Source: Polyangiaceae bacterium (GTDB lineage: Bacteria > Myxococcota_A > Polyangia > Polyangiales > Polyangiaceae). From it: 64,000 bases of DNA. The stretch is taken from positions 62,001 to 126,000 of the forward strand of contig JADLFU010000011.1 of NCBI GenBank assembly GCA_020849655.1. Direction: 5' to 3'. Made by a program: the position numbers and the translations under genes. A model generated the notes under the pieces. The model had not been told where the DNA came from. It saw only the letters and a list, made by a program, of their open reading frames with translations, and ran no database searches. Of this stretch, positions 2,554 to 49,651 are shown piece by piece; the stretch's first letter is position 1, and each line of letters starts with the position of its first letter.

Positions 2554-2604
2554 CACGCCGGGCGCTGGCCGTCGCGGCGGCGCTGAACTAGCCATCGCGC
2601 CGAC

Positions 2605-3744: not shown

Positions 3745-3754
3745 CGGCGGGGCG

Positions 3755-4900
3755 TCAGGCGTCGCCCGCGAGCTCCGCCCGGTCGCCGAGGGCGTCCCGG
3801 AGCGCGCGCAGCCGCGCCTCGTCGCCCCGGCGTCGCAGCTCGTCGACCAGAAACGCGAGGGAGTCGCGCGGCGCCGAGCCCGCGTGGCGCCCCGCGAGCT
3901 CGAGCGCGTCGTCGAGGCGATCGACCGCGACGAGCCCGTGCAGCAGCGCGCCGAGCGCCGGTCCGTCCGGCGCCGCGTCGGCCCGGTCGCGGAGCAGCGC
4001 GAACGCCTCCTCGCGTCGACCGACCACGTCGAGCGCCTGCGCGCGCGCGATGTCGTCCTCCATGGTCGGGGCTTCCATCGTCGAGAGCACCGTCAGCGCG
4101 CGCCCGCCGTCGTCGCGGCGGAGGTTGATCTCCACGAGGACGCGCCGAGCCCTGTCGCGCACCTCGGGGGACGGCGCGAGCGGCAGCGACGTCAGCGCGC
4201 GCAGCTCCGCCTCGTCGTCCGCGCCGCGCGCTGCGAGCTCCTCCGCCGCCTCCACGCCGCGCAGGGCGATGGCCTCCGCCGCGCGCGCGCGCGCCTGCAG
4301 CTCGGGGTACGAGATCACCGCCTGGACGCTGCGCAGGCACATCACCGCGAACAGGATCCCCGCGAACAGCACGCCGAACCGGAGCATCAGCGCGGCGAGG
4401 CCGCCCGCGACGAGCGCAGACACGATGAAGGTCGCGCGCTCGCGCTTCGGGCCGAGCAGGTCGCGCATCACCTGGCCGCCGTCGAGCGGCCACACGGGCA
4501 CGAGGTTCAGCAGGCCCCAGCCGAAGGTGGTGACGAACACCTGCTGGAAGACGGCCAGCGCGACGCCCGTCGGCCGGACGGAGGCGTAGACGCCGAGCGC
4601 CACCGCGCCGAGCGCGAAGCTCGCGAGCGGCCCCGCCGCCGCCATGAACATGTGCCGAAACCGCGGCAGCGGCGGCGACGTGGTCTGTCCTCCGAACGCG
4701 ATGAGCTCGATCGCCGGCGCCACGCCGAACGCTCGCGCCGCGAGGGCGTGCCCGAGCTCGTGCGCCATCACCGCGACGAACACGACGGCGACCCAGGAGC
4801 CGAGCAACGTGGGCGTCCGGTAGCCGAGGCCGAGCAACAGCGCGGTCGCCCAGAACATCATGCGCACCTGCACCGGGATGCCGAAGAGCCGGAAGCTCAC
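3755..4900 (-). CDS. M50 site-2-protease-like membrane metalloprotease with C-terminal helical repeats
   Basis: A 381-residue membrane protein. The zinc site is HELGHA (~residue 47) with the distal aspartate in NLVPVWPLDGG (~133), which together define the site-2 protease family that cleaves substrates within the membrane. About four to six hydrophobic segments surround these motifs. The last ~180 residues are soluble and alanine/arginine-rich, resembling TPR-like helical pairs and probably interacting with partners. The GTG at 4900 is preferred because AGGAGAGG sits just upstream (4905-4912) and the longer frame adds a non-conserved tail. Family members often activate membrane-bound transcription factors, but no substrate is evident here. 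Confidence 0.87.
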   Translation of the reverse strand: MSFRLFGIPVQVRMMFWATALLLGLGYRTPTLLGSWVAVVFVAVMAHELGHALAARAFGVAPAIELIAFGGQTTSPPLPRFRHMFMAAAGPLASFALGAVALGVYASVRPTGVALAVFQQVFVTTFGWGLLNLVPVWPLDGGQVMRDLLGPKRERATFIVSALVAGGLAALMLRFGVLFAGILFAVMCLRSVQAVISYPELQARARAAEAIALRGVEAAEELAARGADDEAELRALTSLPLAPSPEVRDRARRVLVEINLRRDDGGRALTVLSTMEAPTMEDDIARAQALDVVGRREEAFALLRDRADAAPDGPALGALLHGLVAVDRLDDALELAGRHAGSAPRDSLAFLVDELRRRGDEARLRALRDALGDRAELAGDA

Positions 4901-5022
4901 GGCGCCTCTCCTAGCACCAACCAGGCGGTCGGGGCACGCCTGGGGCGCTCGGCCGACGAGGGCGAGGGAGGCCACGCCACCCGGCGACGCGCGCCGGCGC
5001 GGTGCTATGAGCGGCGCGCTCG

Positions 5023-6939
5023 ATGATCTCGGTCTCTGCGCTCGGCAAGTCGTTCGGCGGACGGACGCTGTTCGAGCGGGTCTCGCTGCAGCTCGGCCCC
5101 GGCGCGCGCTACGGCCTCGTGGGCGCCAACGGCTCGGGGAAATCCACGTTTCTCCGCGTCATCGCGGGTGATGAGCCCGCGACGGACGGCGTCGTGTCCA
5201 TCCCCGCGCGCGTGCGGCTCGGCGTCCTGCGGCAGGATCAGTTCGCGATCGACGCGGAGCCCATCCTCGACGCGGCGATGCGCGGCGACGCAGACGTGTA
5301 CGCGGCGCTCCGCGAGCGGGACGAGCTCCTCGACCGAGGAGGCGACGCGGGCCGGCTCGCCGAGGTGGAGCACCTGATCGCGACGACGGACGGCGCGACG
5401 CTCGCCGCGCGCGCGGGCGCGGTGCTCACGGGGCTCGGCGTCGCCGAGGGGTCGCACCACCAGCCGCTCTCGACGCTCTCCGGCGGGTTTCGCCTGCGAG
5501 TGCTGCTCGCGCAGGTGCTGCTGTCGCGACCGGACGCGCTGCTCCTCGACGAGCCGACCAACCACCTCGACATCCTCTCGATACGGTGGCTCGAGCGCTT
5601 CCTCGTCGGGTTTCCGGGCGCGGCGCTCGTGATCTCGCACGATCAGCGGTTCCTCGAGGCGGTCGCGACGCACGTGCTCGACGTCGACTACGGCACCATC
5701 ACCTCGTACCCGGGCCCGTTCTCCGCCTTCGTCGCGGACAAGGCCGCGAGGCGGGCGCAGAAGGAGCAAGAGGTCGCGCGCGCCGAGCGAGAGATCGCGC
5801 ACAAGCGCGCGTTCGTGGAGCGGTTCGGCGCGAAGGCGACGAAGGCGAAGCAGGCCCAGAGCAGGCTGAAGCAGATCGAGCGGATCGAGGTCGAGGAGCT
5901 CGCGGCGAGCTCCCGCCGCGCGCCGTCGTTCCGGTTCGAGCCCCGCCGCCCGAGCGGCAAGGACGTGCTCGGCGTCCTCGGCGTGTCGCGCGCGTACGGC
6001 GACAAGCGCGTGCTCTCGGGCTGCTCGCTCCGCGTCGCGCGCGGCGAGAAGGTCGCCGTCATCGGCGCGAACGGCCTCGGCAAGTCGACCCTGCTGAAGA
6101 TCGTCGCCGGCAAGCTCGCGGCCGACGAGGGCGCGGTCGAGCTCGGCCACGAGGTCAGCCTCGGGTACTTCGCGCAGGACCACCGGGAGCTGCTCGATCC
6201 GACCTCGACGCCCCTCGCGCACGTGTGGGCCGCGTGCCCGACGGCGCCGCTCCCGTGGGTGCGCGGTCAGCTCGGGCGCCTCTTGTTCTCGAGCGACCGC
6301 GTGGACGCGCTCATCTCGACGCTGTCGGGCGGTGAGGCCGCGCGGCTCGTGTTCTGCCGGCTCGCTGTCGAGCGCCCGAACCTGCTCGTCCTCGACGAGC
6401 CGACGAACCACCTCGATCTCGAGGCGATCGACGCGCTGCAGGACGCCCTCCGAGCGTACGAGGGGACCGTTGTGTTCGTGTCCCACGATCGACACTTCGT
6501 CTCGCGCCTCGCGACGCGGGTGATCGAGGTGACGCCCGCCGGGTTGACCGATTTCCCGGGGACGTACGACGAGTACCTCGGCCGCGAGGGAGACGACCAC
6601 CTCGACGTCGACGCCGTCTCGCTGCGCGCGCACGCCGAGCGCTCCCCGCGCGCGCACAAGGCCGGGACGAGCGCGGACTGGGAGGCCGACAAGCGCCGCC
6701 GCAACCGCCGCGCGAAGCTCCCGTCGCTCTCGGCCGCGGCGCAGGCGCGCGTCGATGAGGCCGAGGCGCGACGCCGGGAGATCGCGGCGGGCTACGAGCA
6801 GCCGGGCTTCTTCGACGCCGCGACCGACGCGGAGCTCCGGAGGCTCGCCGACGAGGACGCGGCGCTCGCCCGCGAGATCGACTTCGCGCTCGACGAGTGG
6901 GAGTCGCTCGAGCGGGAGCTCGCAGAGGAGACCTCGTGA
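5023..6939 (+). CDS. ABC-F family ATPase (tandem ABC domains)
   Basis: A 638-residue protein with two ABC ATPase domains and no membrane segment, typical of ABC-F ribosome-associated factors (EttA/Uup/YheS type). Domain 1 has Walker A GANGSGKST, signature TLSGGF and Walker B LLLDEPTNHLD. Domain 2 has GANGLGKST, TLSGGEAARL and LVLDEPTNHLD. An arginine/lysine-rich linker of ~80 residues lies between them, where the P-site-tRNA interaction motif sits, and a charged helical tail follows domain 2. It heads a four-gene run in which each gene overlaps the next by four bases. Whether it is a translation factor or an antibiotic-protection protein cannot be told from sequence. Confidence 0.9.
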   Translation: MISVSALGKSFGGRTLFERVSLQLGPGARYGLVGANGSGKSTFLRVIAGDEPATDGVVSIPARVRLGVLRQDQFAIDAEPILDAAMRGDADVYAALRERDELLDRGGDAGRLAEVEHLIATTDGATLAARAGAVLTGLGVAEGSHHQPLSTLSGGFRLRVLLAQVLLSRPDALLLDEPTNHLDILSIRWLERFLVGFPGAALVISHDQRFLEAVATHVLDVDYGTITSYPGPFSAFVADKAARRAQKEQEVARAEREIAHKRAFVERFGAKATKAKQAQSRLKQIERIEVEELAASSRRAPSFRFEPRRPSGKDVLGVLGVSRAYGDKRVLSGCSLRVARGEKVAVIGANGLGKSTLLKIVAGKLAADEGAVELGHEVSLGYFAQDHRELLDPTSTPLAHVWAACPTAPLPWVRGQLGRLLFSSDRVDALISTLSGGEAARLVFCRLAVERPNLLVLDEPTNHLDLEAIDALQDALRAYEGTVVFVSHDRHFVSRLATRVIEVTPAGLTDFPGTYDEYLGREGDDHLDVDAVSLRAHAERSPRAHKAGTSADWEADKRRRNRRAKLPSLSAAAQARVDEAEARRREIAAGYEQPGFFDAATDAELRRLADEDAALAREIDFALDEWESLERELAEETS

Positions 6940-7715
6940 GCGCAGCCGCGCCGCGCGCGCCCGCGCGCCGAGCCTCGGGCGGCGACGTCGCCCGCGCGAT
7001 CGCGCTCCTCTTCGCCCTCCTGGCGACGCTGGGGCTGGCGGGGTGCAAGCGCGTGCGCGGCGCGCTCGGATCGAAGCCCGCCGAGGTCGCGCGCGGGGTC
7101 GTCGTCTCGCTCGAGGTGCCGGGCGACGTCCCGGTCGCGTTCGTCCGCGCGACCTCGGCGTCGAAGCGGGTGATCGTGTACCTCCCGCCGAGGTGCGTCG
7201 ACGCCGGAGAGTCGTTCCGCGAGTGGGCCGTCGTGGCGTCGCGCGACGCCTCCGCCCTCGGCCTCACAGGCGACACGCCGTGCCCGGCGTCGCCCCACCA
7301 GCAGCTCACGACGGACATCACGAAGCTCTCATCGCGCGTCGACGCGGCGCTGAGCGCGGCTGCCGCGGTGTCGCAGATCGACCGCGCGTCGATCGTGCTC
7401 GCCGGGTACTCGCAGGGCGCCGCGCGCGCAGAGGATCTCGTGCAGCACGATCCGGCGCGCTTCCCTCGCGCGCTCCTCATCGGCGCGCCCGAGGCCCCGC
7501 AGGTGAGCCACCTCGGCCGCGCGCGCGCCGTGGCGACCGCCGCCGGCGAGCGCGACCGCCGCGATCTGATGCTCACGGGCACCCAGGCGCTCGGGCGCGC
7601 GGGCGTGCCGTCGAGGTTCTTCTTGCTCCCCGGCGCCGCGCACGGTGAGTTCGGACCCGAGGGCGGCGACGTGATGCTCGAGGCGATCGCGTGGCTCTTC
7701 GAGGCGGCGCCGTGA
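6936..7715 (+). CDS. Alpha/beta-hydrolase-like lipoprotein
   Basis: A 259-residue protein starting at GTG 6936, inside the stop of the ABC-F gene (GTGA overlap). A hydrophobic stretch ends in the lipobox LGLAGCKR, predicting a lipid-anchored envelope protein. GYSQGA (~residue 160) is a serine nucleophile elbow, and GAAHGEFG near the C-terminus supplies the likely catalytic histidine, so an esterase or peptidase-like alpha/beta hydrolase is probable. Substrate is unknown. Its place between the ABC-F gene and a two-component system suggests co-expression with them. Confidence 0.75.
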   Translation: MSAAAPRAPARRASGGDVARAIALLFALLATLGLAGCKRVRGALGSKPAEVARGVVVSLEVPGDVPVAFVRATSASKRVIVYLPPRCVDAGESFREWAVVASRDASALGLTGDTPCPASPHQQLTTDITKLSSRVDAALSAAAAVSQIDRASIVLAGYSQGAARAEDLVQHDPARFPRALLIGAPEAPQVSHLGRARAVATAAGERDRRDLMLTGTQALGRAGVPSRFFLLPGAAHGEFGPEGGDVMLEAIAWLFEAAP

Positions 7716-8398
7716 CGCGCGTGCTCGTGATCGAGGACGAGCCCGACCTCGCGGAGGTGCTCCTGTACAACCTGGTGGCGGCAGGCTTCGAGGCCGAGGT
7801 GGCGGCGCGCGGAGCGGACGGCCTCGTGGCCGCCCGGCGCGCGCGCCCGGACGTCGTGCTCCTCGATCTCATGTTGCCCGATCTGGCCGGCACCGAGGTC
7901 TGCCGCGCGCTCAAGGCCGACCCCGTCACGCGCGACGTCCCGGTGATCATGCTCACGGCGCGCGGCGAGGAGATCGATCGCGTCGTGGGCTTCGAGCTCG
8001 GGGCGGACGACTACGTGGTGAAGCCTTTCAGCGTGCGCGAGCTGCTCCTGCGCGTCCGCGCCGTCGATCGCCGCGCGAGGGCGCCGCGCGAGGAGGCCAC
8101 CGTGTCGGTGTTCGGCGCGCTCCGCGTCGACCGGGCCGCGCACCGGGCCTGGGTCGACGAACAGGAGATCGAGCTGACGGCGCTCGAGTTCAAGCTGCTG
8201 ACCTTGCTGATGGATCGCCGAGGGCGGGTGCAGACGCGCGCGCGCCTGCGCGACGCCGTGTGGGGGATCACCTCGGACGGGACGACGCCCGGCGTCGACA
8301 CGCGGGTCAAGCGCCTCCGCGAGAAGCTCGGCCGCGCGGGTGACTATGTCGAGACGGTCCGCGGCGTCGGGTATCGCTTCGCCGAGACGCCCGGATGA
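7712..8398 (+). CDS. OmpR/PhoB-type response regulator
   Basis: A 228-residue regulator. The receiver domain (1-120) shows the acidic pocket EDEP, phospho-acceptor aspartate in VLLDLMLP, the conserved Thr in MLTARG and Lys in VVKPFS. The winged-helix domain (~130-225) has LTALEFKLL and the DNA-recognition region VDTRVKRLREKLG, ending in VRGVGYRF, as in PhoB and OmpR. GTG 7712 overlaps the previous stop; the next gene, its likely partner kinase, overlaps by ATGA. The best-known relatives regulate phosphate starvation, but without a pst or phoU neighbour that assignment is unproven. Confidence 0.92.
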   Translation: MTRVLVIEDEPDLAEVLLYNLVAAGFEAEVAARGADGLVAARRARPDVVLLDLMLPDLAGTEVCRALKADPVTRDVPVIMLTARGEEIDRVVGFELGADDYVVKPFSVRELLLRVRAVDRRARAPREEATVSVFGALRVDRAAHRAWVDEQEIELTALEFKLLTLLMDRRGRVQTRARLRDAVWGITSDGTTPGVDTRVKRLREKLGRAGDYVETVRGVGYRFAETPG

Positions 8399-10203
8399 GC
8401 TCGCGCGGGCGACGGCTCGGCATCCGAGGCAAGCTGTTCCTGCTCTCGCTGGCGCTGATCCTCGTCTGCGTCGGCGTGCTGGATCTGTACCTCTCCAGCA
8501 GGCTCTCGGCGTCGATCACCGCGCGGACCAGGGACGAGCTCGGCGTCCGGCTCGCGCTCGTCGCGCGCGCGGCGGCGAGCCTCGACGCGCCGGTCGACGG
8601 GCTGGTGGCGTTCGACAGGCGGGCCGACGAGCTCGGCCGGCGCGCCCGGGCGCGCGTCACGATCATCACCGACGAGGGCAGGGTGATCGGCGACTCCGAG
8701 ATCGAGCTCGCTGCCTTGCCGCAGGTCGACAACCACCGCGAGCGCGCGGAGGTGAGGCGGGCAGGAGGCGCCGCGCTCGGGGAGGACGTGCGCGTCTCTC
8801 CGACGACCGGAAGGCGGACGATGTACGCGGCGACGGGCGTCACGGGCGCGCGCGGAGACCGGCTGATCGCGAGGGTCGGGCTCCCGCTCGACGAGGTCGA
8901 CCGCGCGATCGGCGACGCGAGGCGCACCCTGCTCGCCGGCGCGCTCCTCGCGGCGCTGGTCGCGATCGCGCTCTCGAGCGTGGCGGCCGAGCTCGCGTCG
9001 TCGCCCGCGCGCCGGATGATCGAGGCTGCGACGCGGATGGCGCGCGGGGAGCTCACGGTCCGCGCGGCGCGCGCCGGCGGGGACGACGAGCTCGCCGATC
9101 TCGGCGCGGCGCTGGAGCTCCTGGCGTCGAGCCTCGCGGCCTCCATGGAGGAGCTCCGTCGCGAGCACGCGCTCGTGCAGAGCATCGTCGAGGGGCTGCG
9201 AGAGGGGGTGCTCCTGCTCGACGAGGGGGGCCAGGTGATCCTCGCGAACGCGTCGCTGCGCGACCTCCTCGGGCTGCCACGCGCGGGTGAGCCGCAGGCG
9301 CTCACTCTGGCGCTCGGCTCGAGCGAGCTCGCGGGCGCGCTCGAGGCCGCGCGCGGTGGACGAGTGGAGCGCGAGCTCGCCCTCGGCGCCGTCGCGCGGC
9401 GCGTGCTCCTGCGCGCCGGGCCGCACCCCCCGACGGGCGGCGTGCTCGCGGTGGTGGTGGACGTCACCGAGGTGCGCCGGCTGGAGGTGGTGCGCCGGGA
9501 ATTCGTGGCGAACGCGTCGCACGAGCTGCGCACCCCGGTCGCGTCGATCCTCTCGGCGGCCGAGACCCTGCGCGACGCAGCCGCCCGCGATCCCGACGCC
9601 GCGCCGCGGTTCGCGGCGCTCATCGAGCGCAACGCCCTGCGCCTCACGCGCCTCGTCGACGATCTGCTGGAGCTATCCCGCCTGGAGTCGCGAGAGCTCG
9701 CGCTCGCCCCGTCGATGGGAGACGTCGGCGCCGCGGCGACGAGCGTCGTCGCGAGGCTCCGTGAGCGCGCGGACGCGCGCGGCGTCTCGCTCACGGTCGC
9801 GGGTGACGCGCGCGCGCGGTTCGACGCGCGCGCCCTCGACGTCGTGCTCTCGAACCTGCTCGACAACGCGCTCAAGTACAGCCCCGAGGGCGCGCGTGTC
9901 ACCGTGAGGATCACGCGCGACGGCGACGTCTGCCGCGTCGCGGTCGAGGACACCGGGCCTGGCGTCGAGGCGCGCCACCTGCCGAGGCTGTTCGAGCGCT
10001 TCTACCGCGCGGATCCCGGCGGCGTGGCCGGCTCGGGGCTCGGCCTCTCGATCGTGAAGCACCTCGCCGAGGCGATGGATGGCCGCGTCTCCGCAGAGAG
10101 CGAGCCCGGCCGGGGCGCGACCTTCACGATCGAGCTCCCCTCGGCCGAGCGTCAGTCGCAGTCGAGCGTGGGGGGCCCGCCGGGCGGCAGCGGGAAGATC
10201 TGA
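8395..10203 (+). CDS. PhoR-type sensor histidine kinase (two TM, HAMP, PAS, HisKA, HATPase)
   Basis: A 602-residue membrane kinase. One TM segment near residues 14-34, a periplasmic loop of ~145 residues, a second TM near 180-205, a HAMP-like linker and a PAS domain (~255-350) precede the catalytic core. The phospho-acceptor is in NASHELRTP (~residue 375). The ATPase domain has N box NLLDNALKYSPEG, G1 VEDTGPGVE and G2 GSGLGLSIV. It overlaps the regulator gene by ATGA, so the pair is a cognate two-component system. The last ~17 codons lie antisense to the convergent copper-monooxygenase pseudogene (52-base overlap). Confidence 0.92.
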   Translation: MSSRGRRLGIRGKLFLLSLALILVCVGVLDLYLSSRLSASITARTRDELGVRLALVARAAASLDAPVDGLVAFDRRADELGRRARARVTIITDEGRVIGDSEIELAALPQVDNHRERAEVRRAGGAALGEDVRVSPTTGRRTMYAATGVTGARGDRLIARVGLPLDEVDRAIGDARRTLLAGALLAALVAIALSSVAAELASSPARRMIEAATRMARGELTVRAARAGGDDELADLGAALELLASSLAASMEELRREHALVQSIVEGLREGVLLLDEGGQVILANASLRDLLGLPRAGEPQALTLALGSSELAGALEAARGGRVERELALGAVARRVLLRAGPHPPTGGVLAVVVDVTEVRRLEVVRREFVANASHELRTPVASILSAAETLRDAAARDPDAAPRFAALIERNALRLTRLVDDLLELSRLESRELALAPSMGDVGAAATSVVARLRERADARGVSLTVAGDARARFDARALDVVLSNLLDNALKYSPEGARVTVRITRDGDVCRVAVEDTGPGVEARHLPRLFERFYRADPGGVAGSGLGLSIVKHLAEAMDGRVSAESEPGRGATFTIELPSAERQSQSSVGGPPGGSGKI

Positions 10204-40380: not shown

Positions 40381-41247
40381 TCACGGCTCGGCGCCGTGGA
40401 CGCGGAGCTCCCCCGTCCGGCGGGTCGAGTAGCCGAGGCCATCGCCGAGCGCGCGCCTCAACGCCCCGCGCTGGGCCGCCTCCGCGAGCGCGATGAACGC
40501 GGCGGACGACACGTCGACGGCGCGCGCGACGAGGCCGTACGACTCGGCCGCGAGCGGCAAGAACCCGAGGCCCGCGCGCGAGCCCCACGCCCGCGTCGCG
40601 AGCCCCACCTCCGCCTCCCCCCGGCAGACCGCGAGCGCGACGTCGCGGTGCGAGGCGAACACGCGGGCCCTGGCGAGCGCGCGCTCCGGCTCGATGCCCG
40701 CGCGCGCGAGCGCGGCGTCGAGGTGCGCGCGCACCCCCGCCGTCCTCGGCCTCACGGCCAGCCTGCGCCCCGCGACGGCGCTCACCGTTCGTACCCGCGC
40801 GCCCCGCGGGAACACCAGCCCCACCTCTCGCTCCACGAGGTGCAGCCGCGCGACCGCCACGCCGGCGAGCTCGGCCGGTCTGCCGTCGCCGTGGCACCCC
40901 GCGACGAGCACCGCGCGCTGCCCGAGCAGCGCCGTCGCGCCCGCGTGGTCGGTGGGAACGAGCCCGAGCCGCGCGTCCGCGCGAGACGCCACCTCCGAGA
41001 GCAGCAGCTCGAGGCCGAGATCGCCGTTGGCGGCCACGAGCGGCGGCGCGTCGTCCACGGGGCGCGCGGCTCCCGCCACGTCGGCGCGCTCGGCCGCACC
41101 GCCGCGCACGTAGGCGCGGATCTCCGCGTCGTCGAACCTCCACTCGTCGCCGACGCGGTGCGCGGGCAGGCCGCGCTTCATCAGGCGGTAGACGTGCTTC
41201 GGGTGGACCTTCAGCAGGGCCGCGACCTCTCTCGTCGTCAACAGCAT
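40381..41247 (-). CDS. Helix-turn-helix regulator with substrate-binding (PBP-like) sensor domain
   Basis: A 288-residue regulator. Residues ~1-45 are an excisionase/MerR-like HTH: LLTTREVAALLKVHPKHVYRLMK then GLPAHRVGDEWRFDDAEIRAY. Residues ~70-288 resemble the PBP-like domain (PF12727 type) of molybdate/tungstate-type regulators, with a type-II binding-protein pattern ARLHLVEREVGLVFP, GRRLAVRPRTAGVRAHLD, EAEVGLATRAWG and LGFLPLAAESYGLV. Its ligand may be an oxyanion or a small metabolite (inference). It is divergent from an operon whose first product is itself a PBP-like secreted protein, so it probably senses the same ligand. ATG 41247 is used; ATG 41259 is possible. Confidence 0.78.
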   Translation of the reverse strand: MLLTTREVAALLKVHPKHVYRLMKRGLPAHRVGDEWRFDDAEIRAYVRGGAAERADVAGAARPVDDAPPLVAANGDLGLELLLSEVASRADARLGLVPTDHAGATALLGQRAVLVAGCHGDGRPAELAGVAVARLHLVEREVGLVFPRGARVRTVSAVAGRRLAVRPRTAGVRAHLDAALARAGIEPERALARARVFASHRDVALAVCRGEAEVGLATRAWGSRAGLGFLPLAAESYGLVARAVDVSSAAFIALAEAAQRGALRRALGDGLGYSTRRTGELRVHGAEP

Positions 41248-41283
41248 GGGCGCCCGCATCGTGCACGAGGTCTCGCCTGATTT

Positions 41284-41336
41284 GTGTCATCGGCGCGTCA
41301 CCATGGGTCATATGCACCTTGATGTTCCCTAATGTT
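41284..41336. promoter_or_regulatory. Candidate operator: helically phased GTCA repeats and paired ATGTT
   Basis: GTCA begins at 41286, 41297 and 41307, spacing 11 and 10 bases, so three half-sites would lie on one face of the helix. ATGTT at 41322 and 41332 is again spaced 10. The region is the most AT-rich in the area and lies between the HTH/PBP regulator and its divergent operon. TTGATG (41319-41324) might be a -35 box, but no strong -10 is seen. Confidence 0.45.
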
Positions 41337-41384
41337 ACTTGTACACGCGTCACATCGGCGTGAGTCGCGCCGAGGTCCCACATC

Positions 41385-41390
41385 AGGAGG
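41385..41390 (+). promoter_or_regulatory. Strong Shine-Dalgarno site AGGAGG
   Basis: AGGAGG lies six bases before ATG 41397. It fixes the start of the PBP-like gene and is the best ribosome-binding site in this part of the window. Confidence 0.75.
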
Positions 41391-41396
41391 AGACTC

Positions 41397-42605
41397 ATGA
41401 TCCCTGTTCGTCCCCGTATCGGCGCCTGGCTCGGGGCGCTCTCTTGGCTCTCTGCGGCCACCGCGGCCGAGGCGGCGCCGCCCTGCAGCTCGCTGCCGAA
41501 CCCCGTTTACCTGCAGGTGGGCGACACCCAGGAGCCCCTGATGAAGGCGCTCGGTCAGAAGCTCCGCGCGTCCGCGGTCCAGCCCATCACGCTCATCTAC
41601 AAGACGAGCGGCTCGTGCACGAACATCGAGGCGATGTACTCGGGCGTGAAGCTCACGACGAACCCGAGCTACGTGCCCTCCGCCGCCGAGGATCCCGCGT
41701 GGGATCCCTCGAAGCCGGCGCCGCAGTGCGAGATCGATCCGGGCGGCGTGACGCTCGACGTGACGAACTCGAACGTCTTCGTGAGCGCCTGCACCGAGGT
41801 CGCGCCCCCCGCGGGCGTGGCGGAGTTCATCGGGCCGGTGCAGCCGTACGTGTTCATCGTCCCGAAGGGCAGCTCGCAGCAGGCCATCACGGCCGAGCAG
41901 GGCTACTTCGTGTTCGGGTTCGGGCAGGCGGGCGGGGCCGAGCCCTGGACGGACGAGGCGTTCGTGTTCTCACGCACGACGACGAAGAGCACGCTCCTCG
42001 CGATCGCCGCGGCGATCCGGGTGCCGCCGTCGAAGTGCAAGGGCAAGCCGTTCGACAAGTCGTCCGAGGTGATGAGCGCGGTCGCCACCTCGACCAGCCC
42101 CGAGAAGACCATCGGCCTGATGGGGGCGGAGATCTACGACGCGAACCGCGACAAGGTCTCGTCGCTCGCGTACCAAGCGTACCAGCAGACGCGCGCCTAC
42201 TTCGCCGACTCGACCTCGTCGTCGCGCGACAAGCGCAACGTGCGCGACGGGCACTACACGATCTGGTCGCCCACGGTGTACCTCGCGCGGGTCGACGCCG
42301 CGGGGCAGGTCACGAACCCGCGGGCCGCGTATGTGCTGAAGCTCATCCTCTCCGAGGCGGCGACGCCGGCGCCCGACTTCGACCCGCTCGCGGTCGTGGT
42401 GGGGCGCGGCCTCGTCCCGGAGTGCGCGATGAAGGTGCAGCGCGCCGAGGAGGGCGGAGACCTCTCTCCCTACGCGCCCGCGGCGCCCTGCGGGTGCGCG
42501 TTCGAGGCGCACGTCGGCAGCCCGTCCGCGGCCTGCGTTGCGTGCGTTGACGACGCGGCGTGCGGCGCCGGCAAGTGCCGCTTCGGCTTCTGCGAGGAGA
42601 GGTGA
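41397..42605 (+). CDS. Secreted solute-binding-like (PstS-fold) protein, first gene of the envelope operon
   Basis: A 402-residue protein with a Sec signal peptide (LSWLSAATAAEAAP). VYLQVGDTQEPLMKALGQKL and TLIYKTSGSCTNIEAM look like the first strand and the TSGS ligand loop of a phosphate/molybdate-type binding protein; VQPYVFIVPKGSS and TIGLMGAEIYD match later hinge regions. The C-terminal ~40 residues add a small Cys-rich tail (CVACVDDAACGAGKCRFGFC). No ABC permease or ATPase gene is nearby, so it is not an ordinary uptake protein. The strong RBS and signal fix the start. Confidence 0.72.
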   Translation: MIPVRPRIGAWLGALSWLSAATAAEAAPPCSSLPNPVYLQVGDTQEPLMKALGQKLRASAVQPITLIYKTSGSCTNIEAMYSGVKLTTNPSYVPSAAEDPAWDPSKPAPQCEIDPGGVTLDVTNSNVFVSACTEVAPPAGVAEFIGPVQPYVFIVPKGSSQQAITAEQGYFVFGFGQAGGAEPWTDEAFVFSRTTTKSTLLAIAAAIRVPPSKCKGKPFDKSSEVMSAVATSTSPEKTIGLMGAEIYDANRDKVSSLAYQAYQQTRAYFADSTSSSRDKRNVRDGHYTIWSPTVYLARVDAAGQVTNPRAAYVLKLILSEAATPAPDFDPLAVVVGRGLVPECAMKVQRAEEGGDLSPYAPAAPCGCAFEAHVGSPSAACVACVDDAACGAGKCRFGFCEER

Positions 42606-42610
42606 TCCAC

Positions 42611-42874
42611 ATGAACATCCTCAAGGTCTGGGCTGCTTCTTCGCTGCTCCTCGCGCTCGGCGCGTGCGGGGGGGACGACGCCCCGAGCGACGCGACGGGC
42701 GCGGCGGGCGCAGGCAACGGCGCGGGCGGCGCGGGCGGGCAGGCCGCGCCGTGCTCCACGGCGCCGAAGACCCACGTCGAGCTGATCAACGCGTGCACCG
42801 ACGCGCAGGCGATCGAGGTGCACCCGGTGCTGCCGTTGCTGCAGCCCGACGGCTCGCTGCCGCCGCTCCCCTGA
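42611..42874 (+). CDS. Small lipoprotein with Gly/Ala linker
   Basis: An 87-residue product. MNILKVWAASSLLLALGACGG gives the signal and lipobox; a short Gly/Ala/Asn linker leads to ~50 residues (TAPKTHVELINACTDAQAI) without a recognised fold and with two cysteines. ATG 42611 is used; a GTG at 42602 would overlap the PBP-like stop. It is the second gene in the divergent operon and is probably an accessory or tether in the outer membrane. Confidence 0.65.
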   Translation: MNILKVWAASSLLLALGACGGDDAPSDATGAAGAGNGAGGAGGQAAPCSTAPKTHVELINACTDAQAIEVHPVLPLLQPDGSLPPLP

Positions 42875-42875
42875 C

Positions 42876-44117
42876 GTGGCGCCGCGCCTCCTCCCGCGGG
42901 CGGTCGCGGTCGGCGCGCTCCTCGCGTGCGGCGTGGCGCGCGCGGACGTGGCGCCGGCCGACGTCACGCTGTCCGGGTACGTGCAGGCCGACTGTGTCGT
43001 CCACCGGCAGTCGTCGGTCGATGAGATCGCGCCCGGCGGCGAGCCGCTGAACCACGACACGTTCTCCATCCCACGCTCGCGGCTCCGCGCGGCCTCGGGG
43101 CGCGGCTGGCTCCGCGGCGCGCTCGAGCTCGACGCGGCGACCGGCCGCGCCTCGACCGTGCGCGTGGCGGAGGCGAGCGTGTCGGCGCGGTGGACGCCGC
43201 CCGGGACGGAGGGCGTCGCGCTCGTCACGGCGTCGATGGGCCTCATCCGCATCCCCTTCGGGTTCGAGCTCGCCGAGCGCTCGACGAAGCGGCTGTTCCT
43301 CGAGCGGAGCCACGCGTCGCGGGCGCTCTTCCCGGGCGTCTACGATCTCGGCGCCTCGGTGTCGGGTGGGCACGCGTTCCTCCGGTACGCGGTCGCGGTG
43401 ATGAACGGCGAGCCCGCCTCGCGGAGCGGCGAGATCCCGGAGGATCCGAGCGCCGCGAAGGACGTGCTCGCGCGCGTCGGCGTCGACACCGAGGCTGGTC
43501 GCCGCGTGCGCGTGCGCGCGGGCGTGTCCGCTGTGATCGGGGCAGGGCTGCACAGAGGGACGCCCGCCTCGAAGGACGTGCTCGTGTGGCGCGACGGGAA
43601 CGAGGACGGCCTCGTGCAGCTCACCGAGATCCAGGCCGTCCCGGGCGCGCCGGCGACGCCGTCCCAGGCGTTCGAGAGGTTCGGGGTGGGGGCCGATCTG
43701 GGCGTGATCGCGCGGCTCCCCGTCGTCGGCGAGCTGTCGCTCTTCGGCGAGATCGTCCGCGCCGCCAACCTCGATCGCGGCGGCACCCCGGCCGATCCGG
43801 TGGCGAGCGGTCGGCTGCTGCGCGAGCGCGGCTACGCGGTGGGCCTCACGCAGGAGCTCACGCGCCACGCGATGATCGGGGTCCGCTACGATCGCTACGA
43901 TCCTGACGCGGACGCGGACGAGCAGCGTGGGCTCCGACGCGTCCCCCGCTCGCGCGCGCGCTCCACCCTCGCGTTCGCCGCGGCGCTGCGCCGGCCGCCG
44001 GGCAGGCTCGTGCTCGAGTACGACCGCAACCAGAACGCCCTCGGTCGTGAGGCGTCGGGCGCGCCCACGTCGATGGCGGACGACGCGCTCACGCTGCGCG
44101 CGGAGATCGTCTTCTGA
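42876..44117 (+). CDS. Porin-like outer-membrane beta-barrel
   Basis: A 413-residue protein. A signal peptide (GALLACGVARADVAP) is followed by strands with alternating patterns: VTLSGYVQADCVVHRQ, FSIPRSRLRAASGRGWLRG, ASMGLIRIPFGFELAERS (the IPFG loop seen in phosphate-selective porins O/P) and a C-terminal LTLRAEIVF ending in Phe. It should form a channel for small solutes. GTG 42876 is only two bases after the previous stop. Co-operonic with a PBP-like protein and a TonB receptor, it could let the shared ligand through the outer membrane. Confidence 0.75.
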   Translation: MAPRLLPRAVAVGALLACGVARADVAPADVTLSGYVQADCVVHRQSSVDEIAPGGEPLNHDTFSIPRSRLRAASGRGWLRGALELDAATGRASTVRVAEASVSARWTPPGTEGVALVTASMGLIRIPFGFELAERSTKRLFLERSHASRALFPGVYDLGASVSGGHAFLRYAVAVMNGEPASRSGEIPEDPSAAKDVLARVGVDTEAGRRVRVRAGVSAVIGAGLHRGTPASKDVLVWRDGNEDGLVQLTEIQAVPGAPATPSQAFERFGVGADLGVIARLPVVGELSLFGEIVRAANLDRGGTPADPVASGRLLRERGYAVGLTQELTRHAMIGVRYDRYDPDADADEQRGLRRVPRSRARSTLAFAAALRRPPGRLVLEYDRNQNALGREASGAPTSMADDALTLRAEIVF

Positions 44118-44965
44118 TGCGCGCCTGGTGTGCCTGGGCGCTCCTCGCGGCCTCGAGCGCGTGCGGCGGCGTCCCGCCCGACCGCGGGCTGGACGCGAGG
44201 CTGGGGGTCGCCGACGCCGCCTACGTCGAGGGCGCCATGCCGGAGTCGGCGGGCGGGCCCGCGGTCGAGTCGATCGATCTGCCGAAGAGCGACGTGTCGG
44301 CCGGCGACGCGGGGATCGTGCTCCGCGCCGCGCTGGGCTCCCGGGCGACCGCCGCGCTGGTCGGCCTCGAGGGGGACCTCGGGTACTGGATCGTCCCCGC
44401 GGGCCTCGCCGACGTCTCGGCGCCCACCTTCCCGACGATCGACGTGCGTCTCTCGCTCGCCTCGTCGATCCCGCCGGGGGCCGCGTCCCTCGTCCTCCGC
44501 GCGGTGGACGCGGAGGGGCGGCCAGGGCCGAGCACGAGCCGTGCCCTCCGCGTCTCTGCGCCCGCGGTCCCCTCTGGCGCGCTCGTCGTCTCGCTCCGGT
44601 GGGACTCGGACGCGGACCTCGATCTCCACGTGGTCGACGCGCTCGGCCGCGAGATCTGGAAGGGCGACATCGAGACGCCCGCGCCCGACGCGGCCTCGCT
44701 CGATCTCGACTCGAACGCCGGGTGCGTGGGCGACGGACGGAGGCGGGAGAGCGTCACGTGGGCCGCGCGGCCTCGCGCGGGGCGCTACGTCGTCAAGGTC
44801 GACACGTTCTCGCTGTGCGCCGCCGGCGCCGCGAGCTGGCGCGTCGAGGCGTGGCTGGACGGCGCGGTGGTAGCGCGCGCGACCGGCGTGAGCGGGCTCG
44901 TCGACACCACGTTCGTCCACGGGCGCGGCGCGGGCGTGCTCGCGCTCGAGATCGATGTCCCCTAG
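44117..44965 (+). CDS. Lipoprotein with a YfaP/DUF2135-type beta domain
   Basis: A 282-residue lipoprotein (LLAASSACGG lipobox). The C-terminal ~140 residues have VVSLRWDSDADLDLHVVDALGREIWKG, the DLDLHVVD pattern of YfaP/DUF2135 domains, also present in the VIT protein at 56340 of this window. The N-terminal ~120 residues are beta-rich without assignment. ATG 44117 overlaps the porin stop (TGATG), and the TonB receptor gene begins inside its own end, so it is tightly built into the operon. Confidence 0.72.
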   Translation: MRAWCAWALLAASSACGGVPPDRGLDARLGVADAAYVEGAMPESAGGPAVESIDLPKSDVSAGDAGIVLRAALGSRATAALVGLEGDLGYWIVPAGLADVSAPTFPTIDVRLSLASSIPPGAASLVLRAVDAEGRPGPSTSRALRVSAPAVPSGALVVSLRWDSDADLDLHVVDALGREIWKGDIETPAPDAASLDLDSNAGCVGDGRRRESVTWAARPRAGRYVVKVDTFSLCAAGAASWRVEAWLDGAVVARATGVSGLVDTTFVHGRGAGVLALEIDVP

Positions 44966-46997
44966 CGCGCTCGCTCGCGCGGGGGTCGCGCTCGCTCTCT
45001 CCGCCGCCCGCGCCTGGGCCGACGACGTCACCGTGACCGCGAGCGCGCCCGACCGCGCGCCAGGCAGCGTGGCGGTGACGGCCAGCGAGGGGCGCCGGGT
45101 GGCGGGGGCGGGCCGTGATCCGCTGCGCGCGGTCGAGAGCCTTCCAGGCGTCGGGCGCGCGTCGTTCGACGGAGGAAGGATCGTCCTCTGGGGCGCCGCG
45201 GCGTCCGACTCGCGCGTGCTCGTCGACGGCGTCGAGATCCCACGGCTCTACCACCTCGGCGGGTTCCGCACGGTGATCGGGGGCGACCTCGTCGGCGGTC
45301 TGACGCTGACGCCGGGCGGGCAGGGGGCGGCCTACGGGCGCGGCACGGGCGGGGTGCTCGTCGTGCGCACGGCGCCGCTCCCGCGTGACGGCTGGCACGG
45401 CAGCGCGCAGCTGGACCTGCTCGACACCTCGGTCGCCGCGAGCGCGACGCTCTTCGGTCGCAGGCTCTCGGTCCACGCGGCCGCGCGCGAGGGGCACCTC
45501 GACCGCGTGGCGGGCGCGGTGGCGCCTGACGAGGTCGCCGACGCCGTGCCCTTCCCGCGGTACAGCGATCGTCAGGCGAAGCTCTCCCTCTCTCTCGGCG
45601 AGGAGGAGACGCTCGATCTCGTGTGGCTGCAGGCGCGCGACGCCTTGGCGCGCGCCGTCGACGCCGCGAGCGCCACGACCGCGCGGCGCGAGCGGCGCGA
45701 GGACGGCTTCGATCGCGTCTGGCTGCGCTACTCGCGCGCGTACGACGACGGCGGCGCGGTCGAGCTCACGCCCTTCGTCGGGTGGGACACGCGCCTCGGC
45801 AGCTCGACCCGCGGGCTCGCGGGCGCCGGGCAGCAGGAACGATCATTCCGCTACGGCCTGCGCGCGTCGTCCTCGCTGCGCGTGTCGTCCAGCGTCGAGG
45901 CGCGCGTCGGCCTCGACGCGCAGGGCACCGCGTCGCGGCTCTCACGGTACGGCTCGCCGACGCTCCCGCCGAGAGAGGGCGACGTCGCCGTCTTCGGGCA
46001 GGCGCCGGGCGCCGACTTCGCGGTCGACGACTGGACCACCACGATCGTGGACGTCGCGCCGTACGTCGAGGTCGAGGCGCGCGTCGGTCAGCTCACGGTC
46101 ACACCGGGGATCAGGATCGACGGCTACCTCGTCGAGGGGAGCCGCGCCCTGCCGCGCGCGGGAGACGCGCCGGTCGCGGGGCTGTCCGAGTTCACGCCGG
46201 TCGTCGCGCCCCGGCTCGCCGCGTCGTGGACCGCTGGTCCGCGCGTCTCGTTCGGGGTCGCCGCGGGCCTGTACCACCAGCCGCCCGACCCGCTCGATCT
46301 CAGCCCCGTCTTCGGCGCGCCTGCGCTCGGCGTGTCCCGCGCGCGTCACCTCGCGCTAAGCTCGGTTGCGCAGCTCACGCCGCTCGTGTCGCTGGACGTC
46401 ACGGTGTTTCATGAGTCACAGGACCGCCTGGCGGTCCGCTCGCGGCGGGCCTCTCCGCTCGTCGGGCAGGCGCTCACCCAGGAGGGAGAGGGGCGCGCGT
46501 ACGGCGTCCAGACGCTCCTGCGTCGCGCGCGGCGTCGCGGCGTCTTCGGGTGGCTCGCGCACACGGCGACCCGGAGCGAGCGGAGGCGCGTCGGCGACGC
46601 TCGCTACCGCCTGTTCGACGAGGATCGCGCGCACGTGCTCGCCGCGGTCGCGGGCGTCGAGCGCGGCCGGTGGAGCGTCGGCGTGAGGTTTCGCTACACG
46701 ACCGGCGCGCCGCGGACGCCGGTCGTCGGATCGTTCTACGAGACCACGACCGGCCAGCACCAGCCGGTGTTCGGTCAGCTGAACAGCGCTCGCCTCCCGG
46801 ATTTTCAGCAGCTGGATCTCCGGGTCGAGCGCGCGATCATCGACGGCCAGCTGAGGGCGTACGTCTACGCCGACGTGCTGAACGTGACCTTTCGCCAGAA
46901 CGTCGAGGAGTGGGTGTACAGCGCCGACTACCGCCGCCGCGGCGAGCTGCACGGGATGCCGCTGCTCGCGGTGGTGGGCGCGAGGATCGAGCGATGA
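44955..46997 (+). CDS. TonB-dependent outer-membrane receptor
   Basis: A 680-residue receptor. A signal peptide (ALALSAARAWADD) precedes the plug domain: DPLRAVESLPGVGRASFDGG, ILWG-type region and VLVDGVEIPRLYHLGGFR, TPGGQGAAYGRGTGGVLVV. The barrel extends from ~residue 140 to the end and has the late LRAYVYADVLNVTF and final arginine. A TonB box is not obvious; DDVTVTASAP near the N-terminus resembles the usual 'VTVTA' start of such receptors. The gene overlaps the previous by 11 bases. Its substrate is presumably the ligand sensed by the divergent HTH/PBP regulator. Confidence 0.85.
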   Translation: MSPSALARAGVALALSAARAWADDVTVTASAPDRAPGSVAVTASEGRRVAGAGRDPLRAVESLPGVGRASFDGGRIVLWGAAASDSRVLVDGVEIPRLYHLGGFRTVIGGDLVGGLTLTPGGQGAAYGRGTGGVLVVRTAPLPRDGWHGSAQLDLLDTSVAASATLFGRRLSVHAAAREGHLDRVAGAVAPDEVADAVPFPRYSDRQAKLSLSLGEEETLDLVWLQARDALARAVDAASATTARRERREDGFDRVWLRYSRAYDDGGAVELTPFVGWDTRLGSSTRGLAGAGQQERSFRYGLRASSSLRVSSSVEARVGLDAQGTASRLSRYGSPTLPPREGDVAVFGQAPGADFAVDDWTTTIVDVAPYVEVEARVGQLTVTPGIRIDGYLVEGSRALPRAGDAPVAGLSEFTPVVAPRLAASWTAGPRVSFGVAAGLYHQPPDPLDLSPVFGAPALGVSRARHLALSSVAQLTPLVSLDVTVFHESQDRLAVRSRRASPLVGQALTQEGEGRAYGVQTLLRRARRRGVFGWLAHTATRSERRRVGDARYRLFDEDRAHVLAAVAGVERGRWSVGVRFRYTTGAPRTPVVGSFYETTTGQHQPVFGQLNSARLPDFQQLDLRVERAIIDGQLRAYVYADVLNVTFRQNVEEWVYSADYRRRGELHGMPLLAVVGARIER

Positions 46998-47863
46998 GGC
47001 GCGGCGTGGCGTGCGTCGTCCTGTTGGCCGCGTGCCGTCCGGAGCTCGGGCCCCCCGACTCGCTGGTCACGCGTGAGCGCGTCATCGCCGTCATCGCAGA
47101 GCCGCCGGAGTCGGGGCCGGGCGAGGCGGTCGCGTACCGTGCGGTCGTCGCGAGCCCCTCCGGGCCCGTCGACGGCGCCGCGGCGACCTGGGGGTTCTGC
47201 GCGACGCCGAAGCCGCTGACCGACAACAACCTCGTGGCCTCGGCGTGCCTCGTCGACGCGAGGCCGATCGCGGATCCGGCGCGGGCGGAGACGCCGCGCG
47301 ACGCGTGCAGATCGTTCGGCCCGGATCCACCCCCCGGGGGGCTGCGCCCGCGCGATCCGGACGTGACGGGAGGCTTCTATCAGCCCGTCCGCGTGGCGCT
47401 GGGAGCGGAACGAGCGTTCCGCCTGCAGCGGGTGTCGTGCTCGCTGCCGAGCGCGCCGCTCGACGTCGCGGTGGCGTTCGCGGCGGCGTACCGCCCGAAC
47501 GAGCGCCCCGTGGTGCGCGAGCTGTCGCTCACCGCCGAGGGCGCGCCGATCGCGCCTGGAGACCGCGTCCCCGGCGGCGCCACGATCGGGCTCCGCGTGA
47601 GCTGGGACGCGTCCGCCGAGGAGCCGTACGTCGTCTACGATCCTGTCGCGCGCGCCCTCTCCGGGCGCACGGAGGCGCTCGCGGTGACCTGGTTCGTCTC
47701 CGGCGGAGAGGTCGCGGACGAGGTGACCGGCGGCGCTGCGGCTCACTCGAGCGAGACGTCGTGGCGCGCGCCCGCCGCGGGGCGCGCCTGGGTGTGGGCC
47801 GTCCTGCGCGACGAGCGAGGAGGCGTCGACGCCGCCGTGGCGGAGGTCGACGTCGCGCGCTGA
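46994..47863 (+). CDS. Lipoprotein, last gene of the TonB/porin operon
   Basis: A 289-residue lipoprotein (VACVVLLAACRPE lipobox). It is beta-rich with the Ig-like pattern PGGATIGLRVSWDASAEEPYVVYDP and a Cys-containing middle (WGFCATPKPL, ACLVDARPI, RDACRSFG). No family was recognised. ATG 46994 overlaps the TonB receptor stop by four bases, so it belongs to that operon and is probably a surface partner of the receptor. Confidence 0.68.
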   Translation: MRRGVACVVLLAACRPELGPPDSLVTRERVIAVIAEPPESGPGEAVAYRAVVASPSGPVDGAAATWGFCATPKPLTDNNLVASACLVDARPIADPARAETPRDACRSFGPDPPPGGLRPRDPDVTGGFYQPVRVALGAERAFRLQRVSCSLPSAPLDVAVAFAAAYRPNERPVVRELSLTAEGAPIAPGDRVPGGATIGLRVSWDASAEEPYVVYDPVARALSGRTEALAVTWFVSGGEVADEVTGGAAAHSSETSWRAPAAGRAWVWAVLRDERGGVDAAVAEVDVAR

Positions 47864-47902: not shown

Positions 47903-49651
47903 ATGTCGATCGATCCTCGCGCGACCTTCGCTTTCCAGGGGGGCGTCGGCTCCTACACCGAGATCGCCGTCCGCGGCCTCGTCGCGGACGGCGGCGCCAC
48001 GACGGGCCACGCGACGTACGACGACGTCGTCGCCGCGGTCGTCGCCGGGCGCGCGCGCTACGGCGTGCTGCCCGTCGAGTACACCGTCGTCGGGACGCTG
48101 GAGGACGCCTACGATCTGCTGGCGTCCGGCGAGATCGTCCCCGTGGCCGAGCTCATCGGGAAGGTCGAGCACTGCCTCGTCGCGCCTCCGGGTGCGACGA
48201 CGGCGACGCTGCGGGAGGTGCTCTCGCACCCGGTCGCGCTCGCGCAGTGCGAGGGCCTCTTCGCGCGGCTCCCTGCGGCGCGCGCCATCGCGTTCAGCGA
48301 TCCCGCGCTCGCGGCGCGCGAGGTGGCGGAGCGGGCGGACGCGTCCCGCGGCGCGATCGCGAGCGCCGCCGCCGCCGAGGCGTTCGGCCTCGTCGTGCTC
48401 GAGCGGGACGTCGCGGACGAGCGCGCGTCGTACACGCGGTACCTCGTCGTCGAGCGCGCGCCGCGGCCGGGCACGCCGCCCTCCCCGCGCGCCGACGCTC
48501 CGCAGAAGACGCTCCTGTCGCTGTCGCCCGACGCGAGGAGCGGCGGGATCGCGGCGGTGCTCGGGGAGCTCTCCCACGCCGGCGTGCGCGTCGAGAAGCT
48601 CGTCTCGCGCCCCCGGCCCGGCGTCTCGTGGGAGGACGTGCTCTACGTCGAGCTCGACGGCGCCGCGGAGGACGCGGTCGTCGCCGACGCGCTCTCGCGC
48701 GTGCGAGGCAAGTGCAGCTGGTTCCGCGTCCTCGGGAGCTTCCTCCGTGCGGCGCGCCCCACGCCGCCGCCGTCCGCGCCGCCGCCGCCGCCGGCTCGTG
48801 AAGTGCGTGAGGTTCCACCGTTGCCTCCCGCCGCGCGCAACTACCCGCGCGCGGCGCGCCAGGCGCGGTCGGAGCCGACGATCGTGCGGGTCGGCGACGT
48901 CGAGCTGGGCGGTGACACGTTCGTGGTCGCCGCGGGCCCGTGCTCCGTCGAGACGGTGGAGCAGATCGAGGGCGTCGCCGAGCACGTCCGTCGCGCGGGC
49001 GCGCGGCTGCTCCGCGGCGGCGTGTTCAAGCCGCGCACCAACCCCTACAGCTTCCAGGGGCTGGGCTACGAGGGGCTGCGCATCATGAAGGCGGCGGGCG
49101 AGCGCGCGGGCCTGCCGATCGTCACCGAGGTGATGGCGCCGTCGCAGGTCGATCCGGTCGCGGCCGTCGCGGACATGCTGCAGATCGGCGCGCGCAACAT
49201 GCAGAACTTCGATCTCTTGCGGGCGGTCGGGCGCACGCACCGCCCCGTGCTGCTGAAGCGCGGGCTCGCTGGCACGATCGACGAGCTGCTCGCAGCCGCC
49301 GAGTACATCCTGTCCGAGGGCAACCAGGCGGTGGTCCTGTGCGAGCGCGGCATCCGCACGTTCGAGACGGCGACGCGCAACACGCTCGATCTGTCGGCGG
49401 TGCCCGTGCTCCGCGAGCGGACGCACCTGCCCGTCGTCGTCGATCCGTCGCACGGCGTAGGCGTCCGGCGCTGGATCCGCCCGCTCTGCCGCGCCGCCAA
49501 GGTCGTCGGCGCGCACGGCATCCTCATCGAGGTGCACCCCGATCCGCCTCGGAGCGTGAGCGACGCCGAGCAGGCGCTCTCGTACGATGATTTCTCGCGG
49601 ATCATGGGCGATCTGCGCGAGCTCGGCGGCGACGCCGTGTACCCGGCGTGA
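47903..49651 (+). CDS. Prephenate dehydratase-ACT-DAHP synthase fusion
   Basis: A 582-residue aromatic-pathway fusion. Residues ~1-190 are prephenate dehydratase: FQGGVGSYTEIAV and SYTRYLVV (the catalytic Thr of the TRF/Y motif), but the substrate loop reads PVEYTVVGT, with Tyr for the usual Asn. Residues ~200-285 are an ACT-like domain whose phenylalanine motif ESRP is VSRP. A Pro-rich linker (~285-315) leads to a type I-beta DAHP synthase: AAGPCSVET, GGVFKPRTNPYSFQG, IGARNMQNF, LLKRGLAGT, CERGIRTFE and DPSHGVG, all intact. There is no chorismate mutase domain. The first pathway step and a phenylalanine-branch step are thus in one chain. Start ATG 47903. Confidence 0.88.
   Translation: MSIDPRATFAFQGGVGSYTEIAVRGLVADGGATTGHATYDDVVAAVVAGRARYGVLPVEYTVVGTLEDAYDLLASGEIVPVAELIGKVEHCLVAPPGATTATLREVLSHPVALAQCEGLFARLPAARAIAFSDPALAAREVAERADASRGAIASAAAAEAFGLVVLERDVADERASYTRYLVVERAPRPGTPPSPRADAPQKTLLSLSPDARSGGIAAVLGELSHAGVRVEKLVSRPRPGVSWEDVLYVELDGAAEDAVVADALSRVRGKCSWFRVLGSFLRAARPTPPPSAPPPPPAREVREVPPLPPAARNYPRAARQARSEPTIVRVGDVELGGDTFVVAAGPCSVETVEQIEGVAEHVRRAGARLLRGGVFKPRTNPYSFQGLGYEGLRIMKAAGERAGLPIVTEVMAPSQVDPVAAVADMLQIGARNMQNFDLLRAVGRTHRPVLLKRGLAGTIDELLAAAEYILSEGNQAVVLCERGIRTFETATRNTLDLSAVPVLRERTHLPVVVDPSHGVGVRRWIRPLCRAAKVVGAHGILIEVHPDPPRSVSDAEQALSYDDFSRIMGDLRELGGDAVYPA

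Follow-up and report, generated by a model that had tools for sequence, protein, structure and literature searches.

A conserved operon of Myxococcota pairing a PstS-fold protein with a porin and a TonB-dependent receptor: a probable molybdate/tungstate branch of an oxyanion-acquisition family

What is a secreted protein of the PstS fold doing in an operon that encodes a porin and a TonB-dependent receptor (TBDR), with no gene for an ATP-binding cassette (ABC) transporter beside it? This question is raised by a locus in a 64,000-nucleotide stretch of DNA (positions 62,001 to 126,000 of contig JADLFU010000011.1; hereafter 'the window') of a Polyangiaceae bacterium, the genome of which (GCA_020849655.1) is fragmented (6.56 Mb in 307 contigs) and has its nearest relatives among the Polyangiaceae. 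A regulator gene on the reverse strand (40381–41259) diverges from six packed genes on the forward strand (41397–47863), which encode, in this order, the PstS-fold protein (hereafter SBP), a small lipoprotein (LP1), the porin, a YfaP-like lipoprotein, the TBDR, and a last lipoprotein (LP2). An earlier note, made from the letters alone, had described these genes as a possible undescribed envelope uptake and sensing system. Our computational analysis supports that description and narrows it to a system of the oxyanion type, with folds of the PstS/ModA/Sbp kind. The window operon is probably the molybdate/tungstate branch of an outer-membrane oxyanion-acquisition operon family of Myxococcota; this assignment of a ligand draws on neighbouring genes and predicted pocket residues, by which molybdate and tungstate cannot be told apart. 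For the operon family in general, a role in acquiring oxyanions or sulfur/phosphorus is likely.

All seven open reading frames (ORFs), the regulator included, are present, and ORF calls and spacing agree with the divergent, tightly packed arrangement that had been claimed. Five bases separate the SBP gene (end at 42605) from the ATG of LP1 (42611), and one base separates LP1 (end at 42874) from the GTG of the porin (42876); the remaining genes overlap, porin and YfaP-like gene by 1 base, YfaP-like gene and TBDR by 11, and TBDR and LP2 by 4. The strong ribosome-binding site noticed earlier stands before the SBP gene, and TonB and porin routes are indeed both encoded. No ABC gene lies in or beside the operon, and the PstCAB genes that go with PstS are missing from it. 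The earlier statement that there is no ABC permease is thus true of the locus, but not of the genome, which encodes ModABC elsewhere (G000:C135; G and L numbers are our handles for genomes and loci).

A single-protein search finds relatives of SBP in 31 of 284 Myxococcota genomes, and a family profile finds them in 53 of 379. We scanned 73 SBP loci in all six frames with profiles built in this analysis. A porin follows SBP in 49 of them and the full set of porin, YfaP-like lipoprotein, TBDR and LP2 in 39; in these 39 complete loci the order is never rearranged, while the incomplete loci are in some cases ended by contig ends and in others are solo SBP genes. ExbB and ExbD are inserted between the YfaP-like gene and the TBDR in 26 of the 73, usually followed by a TonB-like gene (identities from Pfam in example loci); the operons of the window, Minicystis and Polyangium lack such a local ExbBD pair. 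The gene order is kept down to approximately 30% protein identity across the phylum, well beyond close relatives, which was the check that the earlier note had proposed, and a chance arrangement is thereby excluded. From the several members that fall below Pfam cut-offs in the window, one might suppose that these are unrelated envelope genes, clustered in an ordinary way and without a common task; the shared order of the 39 complete loci across the phylum contradicts this and leaves it hardly credible. A single pattern scan of GTDB contigs, made with the protein of the window (a weak test), showed the family in Myxococcota only, and no SBP homologs were found on plasmids. Variants of the locus also occur. 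In Polyangium sp. y55x31 (L038:9974-13955), SBP is followed directly by the TBDR and LP2, with LP1, porin and YfaP-like gene missing, perhaps as a minimal natural version or through an assembly fault. Solo SBP paralogs without the operon (L114, L117–L119, L128, L129, L131, L133–L135) often adjoin genes for kinases or tetratricopeptide repeat proteins.

On its own, SBP finds no useful match in Pfam or the PDB by single-sequence searches, and it was identified only through a family profile and a structure model. The profile matches PstS 1 of Streptococcus pneumoniae (E 0.0019), and the AlphaFold model (predicted local distance difference test [pLDDT] 92.3) has the predicted PstS-type fold of periplasmic binding proteins (PBPs): its best match is PstS 4lat (Z 26.1, root-mean-square deviation 2.3 over 252 residues), followed by ModA (Z about 16.9) and sulfate-binding protein (Z about 15.5). 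There is no match of SBP to the TIGR01256/ModA family. The TSGS ligand loop claimed for SBP can be placed in this modelled fold (residues 70–73), and the ligand-loop regions of PstS are recognisable more generally. SBP differs from PstS in its Cys-rich C-terminal tail, in having a TonB receptor as partner and no adjoining ABC permease, and in one pocket position. We infer that SBP works with the receptor rather than with an ABC permease.

The aspartate of the PstS motif SDVF (Asp56 in Escherichia coli) accepts the phosphate proton. By profile and family alignment, i.e. by sequence alignment and not by superposition of pockets, its column holds N126 in the window SBP. In the SBP tree, all loci labelled as sulfur-linked fall in one clade of 20 rows (clade A; support 100/100), and all loci labelled as molybdenum-linked fall in another (100/99), which is that of the window and has 15 rows. 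A locus received the molybdenum label if it had either molybdenum genes or a PBP_like regulator, so that the label is partly inference. Across 70 SBP family sequences, the column holds D in most members outside these two clades; clade A has G, A or Q in 18 rows and D in L067/L068, and the window's clade has N, A or I in 13 and D in L045/L046. Loss of the aspartate would be expected for a fully ionised ligand such as sulfate or molybdate. The pocket motifs of the two clades differ as well (GDTQ/TSGSC in the window's clade vs GGSA/PGAC in clade A). At L127 (around 2593-9000), an operon with an aspartate-type SBP adjoins an arsenic-resistance-like cluster with arsenate-reductase-like genes.

Given the PstS fold, the operon could be a phosphate or arsenate scavenging system built on PstS and an OprP-like porin. 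PstS is the best structural match of SBP, the porin resembles OprP/OprO (see below), and the aspartate-bearing relatives L127 and L068 lie near ars or phosphonate genes. The window SBP, however, has N126 in place of the aspartate, its genome has PstSCAB-PhoU-like genes in a cluster of their own (L085, by inspection), and PBP_like regulators go with modABC; we regard this explanation as very improbable for the window.

The regulator is one of the pointers to molybdenum. As had been claimed, it joins a helix-turn-helix (HTH) domain to a binding-protein-like sensor: HTH_17 scores 44 bits and PBP_like (PF12727) 84.9 bits, each against a cut-off of 27, which is the COG1910-type combination of PF12727 with a DNA-binding domain. 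Its closest PDB matches are BldC (6amk/6ama), and its NCBIfam match is to the C-terminal part of PRK14498; domain searches found neither a ModE DNA-binding domain nor Mop/TOBE domains. The proposal that regulator sensor and secreted protein are of the same broad PBP type is supported, and the two would seem to share one ligand. PBP_like regulators adjoin SBP only in the window's clade, with an HTH_17-type domain in the window, L034, Minicystis (L035) and five Polyangium-group genomes, and with an XRE-type domain in L047 and L137; L121, too, has a PBP_like regulator. XRE-PBP_like regulators also head modABC in the window genome (G000:C135), G178 and G266, where ModA scores 130–143 bits against a cut-off of 62.5. 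By this association, the PBP_like regulator may bind molybdate or tungstate. The likeness to ModABC/COG1910 systems lies in this sensor domain and its place before modABC; the differences are that SBP has no ModA match, that the DNA-binding domain is HTH_17/BldC-like and not that of ModE, and that outer-membrane genes stand in place of ABC genes.

Further links to molybdenum come from gene neighbourhoods within the same clade. At L042, where SBP is 63% identical to that of the window, the SBP frame is continuous with the C-terminal portion of a molybdenum-storage protein (MoSto) subunit (L042:7022-8350; E 4.8e-18), a fusion that may reflect a deletion or an assembly fault; the next gene encodes a complete MoSto-like subunit (1.7e-69), and ModA-ModB-ModC follow. 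At L137, the regulator–SBP operon diverges from genes for a 2Fe-2S subunit and a MoCoBD_1/2 molybdoenzyme. MoSto is found in five of the 53 genomes, four of which carry the SBP clade of the window.

Clade A has neighbours of a different kind. Sulfate ABC genes lie at L052 and L108, and sulfate-binding protein genes also near L048 and L123; TauD-like oxygenases occur at L053, L059, L048, L110 and L111, CysK with CysE at L055, cystathionine gamma-synthase at L056, and a family 2A encapsulin shell with cysteine desulfurase cargo at L053 (shell also at L059). Family 2A encapsulin is induced by sulfate starvation in Synechococcus (PMC8049743). The sulfur hypothesis was formed on a first set of loci, to which a second set (L107–L139) added L108, L110, L111 and L123, of which L110 and L123 come from congeners of first-set genomes and are not independent. 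Within 20 kb of an SBP locus lie 6 of the 29 sulfate-binding-protein genes in the 53 genomes, against about 0.2 expected (Poisson 9e-8, a rough figure; two are congeners); within 10 kb lie 3 of about 30 TauD genes (1e-4), and the corresponding count for encapsulin is 2 of 9 (5e-4), all three tests having been chosen after some neighbours had been seen. Two operons enclose a TauD/gamma-butyrobetaine-dioxygenase-like gene (L059:9218-10297 and L110:8430-9464), which comes after SBP/LP1 and before the porin gene.

These neighbours would fit another explanation, namely that the window operon imports sulfate or an organosulfur compound as its clade A relatives appear to, and sulfate and molybdate transporters are known to cross-react (PMC4774088). 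All six sulfate-transporter neighbours, however, belong to clade A and none to the window's clade, the window genome has no match to the sulfate-binding protein family TIGR00971, and the pocket motifs differ, so we consider a sulfur ligand unlikely for the window itself.

In the control region, a direct repeat, ATGTTCCCTAATGTTACT in the window (consensus ATGTTACCTAATGTTACC), consists of a pair of ATGTTACC-like units of 8 bp placed 10 bp apart. It is the sole conserved control-region sequence seen across the window, L034, Minicystis and four Polyangium genomes, and at up to three mismatches it occurs once in the window genome. The regulator is divergent from the operon only in the window, L034 and Minicystis; in Polyangium it lies upstream and co-oriented, with the repeat exact before it in four genomes, and other SBP loci either have a regulator of the XRE-PBP_like kind or lack a PBP_like one. 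The repeat fronts the regulator's operon in nine genomes, and a second envelope operon in Minicystis; three tandem units precede orthologs of the regulator in G037 and G090. The ModABC region of the window genome does not carry it. The head-to-tail binding of BldC is to direct repeats of 9 bp (PMC5859096), and the arrangement seen here fits a BldC-like domain. Judged by its conservation, the repeat is probably the operator of the regulator, the likeness to BldC (a MerR-like protein) extending to the HTH domain and to a short tandem repeat as putative operator, and the differences being the 10-bp spacing and the ligand-sensor domain, which BldC lacks.

The second site in Minicystis rosea lies directly upstream of a lipoprotein and barrel operon (L140:5879-8046). 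Homologs of this pair (44% and 42% identical) adjoin an XRE-PBP_like regulator in L089, and a homolog of the lipoprotein (37%) adjoins SBP in L043; regulator, operator and SBP are therefore linked to one regulon. In G037 and G090 (L082:9874-13716 and L083), orthologs of the regulator diverge from another operon, of lipoprotein, TBDR and membrane protein genes. The GTCA repeats that the earlier note had taken for a control element did not hold up as an operator: four occur in 137 bp of the window, in the relative L034 (95–97% identical) only two are left, and neither L035 nor Polyangium has the array.

The remaining envelope proteins of the window fall below Pfam cut-offs, and their assignment, which agrees with that first proposed (porin, YfaP-type lipoprotein, TBDR and two lipoproteins), comes from relatives, family profiles and a structure model. 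The conserved LP1 tail lies between SBP and porin in at least 23 of the 73 loci. Nine of 28 porin relatives match Porin_O_P (PF07396; best E 2.4e-5), which the window protein itself does not; its model (pLDDT 86.6) is a barrel, with best folds that include OprP, OprO and DcaP and also other porins. The possible resemblance to the oxyanion-selective porins OprP and OprO lies in the barrel and in these relatives, whereas the window porin is below threshold and is coupled to a receptor operon. The YfaP-like family of 24 yields one weak DUF2135 match (E 0.0065), and neither its profile nor that of the porin has a sequence match in the PDB. LP2 belongs to no known family, has 27 invariant columns in 21 relatives, and is present with the receptor in every complete locus.

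The window receptor matches Plug at 20.1 bits (cut-off 23.9), and its family profile matches YncD/PqqU (E 2e-7) and FepA; relatives in L057, L065 and L043 pass both plug and barrel cut-offs. These three TBDRs (L057:6556-9096, L065:13349-16024, L043:7368-9812) also have an N-terminal TonB_C domain, two of them being encoded in operons with ExbB-ExbD. The profile matches to siderophore and pyrroloquinoline quinone receptors, and the large ligands that TonB receptors usually carry, would suit import of an organic ligand (metal chelate or glycan) bound by the PBP-like protein. This seems quite improbable, given the PstS/ModA/Sbp type of fold of SBP, an operon without biosynthesis, hydrolase or SusD-type genes (no SusD match was found among its genes), and the oxyanion and sulfur genes that neighbour the operon across clades. 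As a ligand, a chelate of a metal oxyanion (molybdophore) would still be compatible with molybdate/tungstate acquisition.

Table 1. Features of the regulator and operon locus in the window (positions in the window).
Feature	Position	Strand	Basis
Regulator: HTH_17 (excisionase/BldC-like) DNA-binding and PBP_like (PF12727) sensor domains	40381..41259	-	Pfam
Direct repeat, probable regulator site	41322..41339	+	conservation
Ribosome-binding site, strong	41384..41396	+	AGGAGG directly before SBP ATG (41397)
SBP: secreted PstS-fold oxyanion-binding-type protein, Cys-rich C-terminal tail	41397..42605	+	model, family profile
LP1: small lipoprotein, conserved LPLLxxDGxLPPLP tail	42611..42874	+	lipobox LGAC
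Porin, OprP/OprO-like barrel	42876..44117	+	family Pfam matches, model
YfaP/DUF2135-like lipoprotein	44117..44965	+	lipobox SSAC
TBDR, TonB-box-like DDVTVTA at predicted mature N-terminus	44955..46997	+	Plug, family profile
LP2: last lipoprotein	46994..47863	+	lipobox LAAC

Downstream of the operon, on the same strand, an unrelated gene for a fused prephenate dehydratase–3-deoxy-D-arabino-heptulosonate 7-phosphate synthase (47903-49651) starts 39 bases past LP2, and no terminator-like site was found between the two.

Taken as a mechanism, the porin would let the anion cross the outer membrane passively, and the TBDR, aided by the lipoproteins, would capture and actively import it, free or complexed. 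SBP would bind and hold the anion in the envelope, from where the separately encoded ModABC would take it over the inner membrane. The regulator would sense the anion in the cytoplasm through its PBP_like domain and, at high supply, would multimerise on the 10-bp direct repeats in head-to-tail fashion and switch the operon off. The direction of transport is presumed here, and repression rather than activation is a guess.

Several observations weigh against the molybdate/tungstate assignment. No molybdenum gene adjoins the operon in the window, Minicystis or Polyangium, where the link runs only via the PBP_like regulator; L042 is one metagenome-assembled genome with a fused ORF; and in two clade members, L045 and L046, the aspartate is retained and the regulators are of the ArsR type. 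A local ExbBD-TonB is lacking in the window, and the repeats bound by BldC are of 9 bp and not 10 bp. Molybdate is, moreover, small enough for porins, which leaves the need for a TonB receptor unexplained.

With TonB systems that have a dedicated ExbB-ExbD-TonB, this family shares the ExbB-ExbD genes carried in the operons of 26 relatives, but in the literature searched (open-access PubMed Central only) we found none in which a PstS-fold protein and an OprP-like porin accompany the receptor, nor any published TonB/PstS/porin or TonB/molybdate system. The gene set is conserved across Myxococcota and undescribed in that literature. Tentatively, a PstS-type protein may have been recruited from ABC transport to a TonB receptor for energised uptake of free tetrahedral oxyanions by myxobacteria, the same operon being re-tuned to sulfate, phosphate/arsenate or molybdate by pocket changes and regulator swaps.

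The general view is that molybdate, sulfate and phosphate pass the outer membrane by passive routes. If our reading is correct, this conserved operon, with its oxyanion-type binding protein coupled to a TonB receptor, would represent an added, active route over this membrane, and a phylum-wide set of unannotated genes would be given a role. The regulator and operator pair, in which a BldC-like domain is fused to a ligand sensor, is directly testable.

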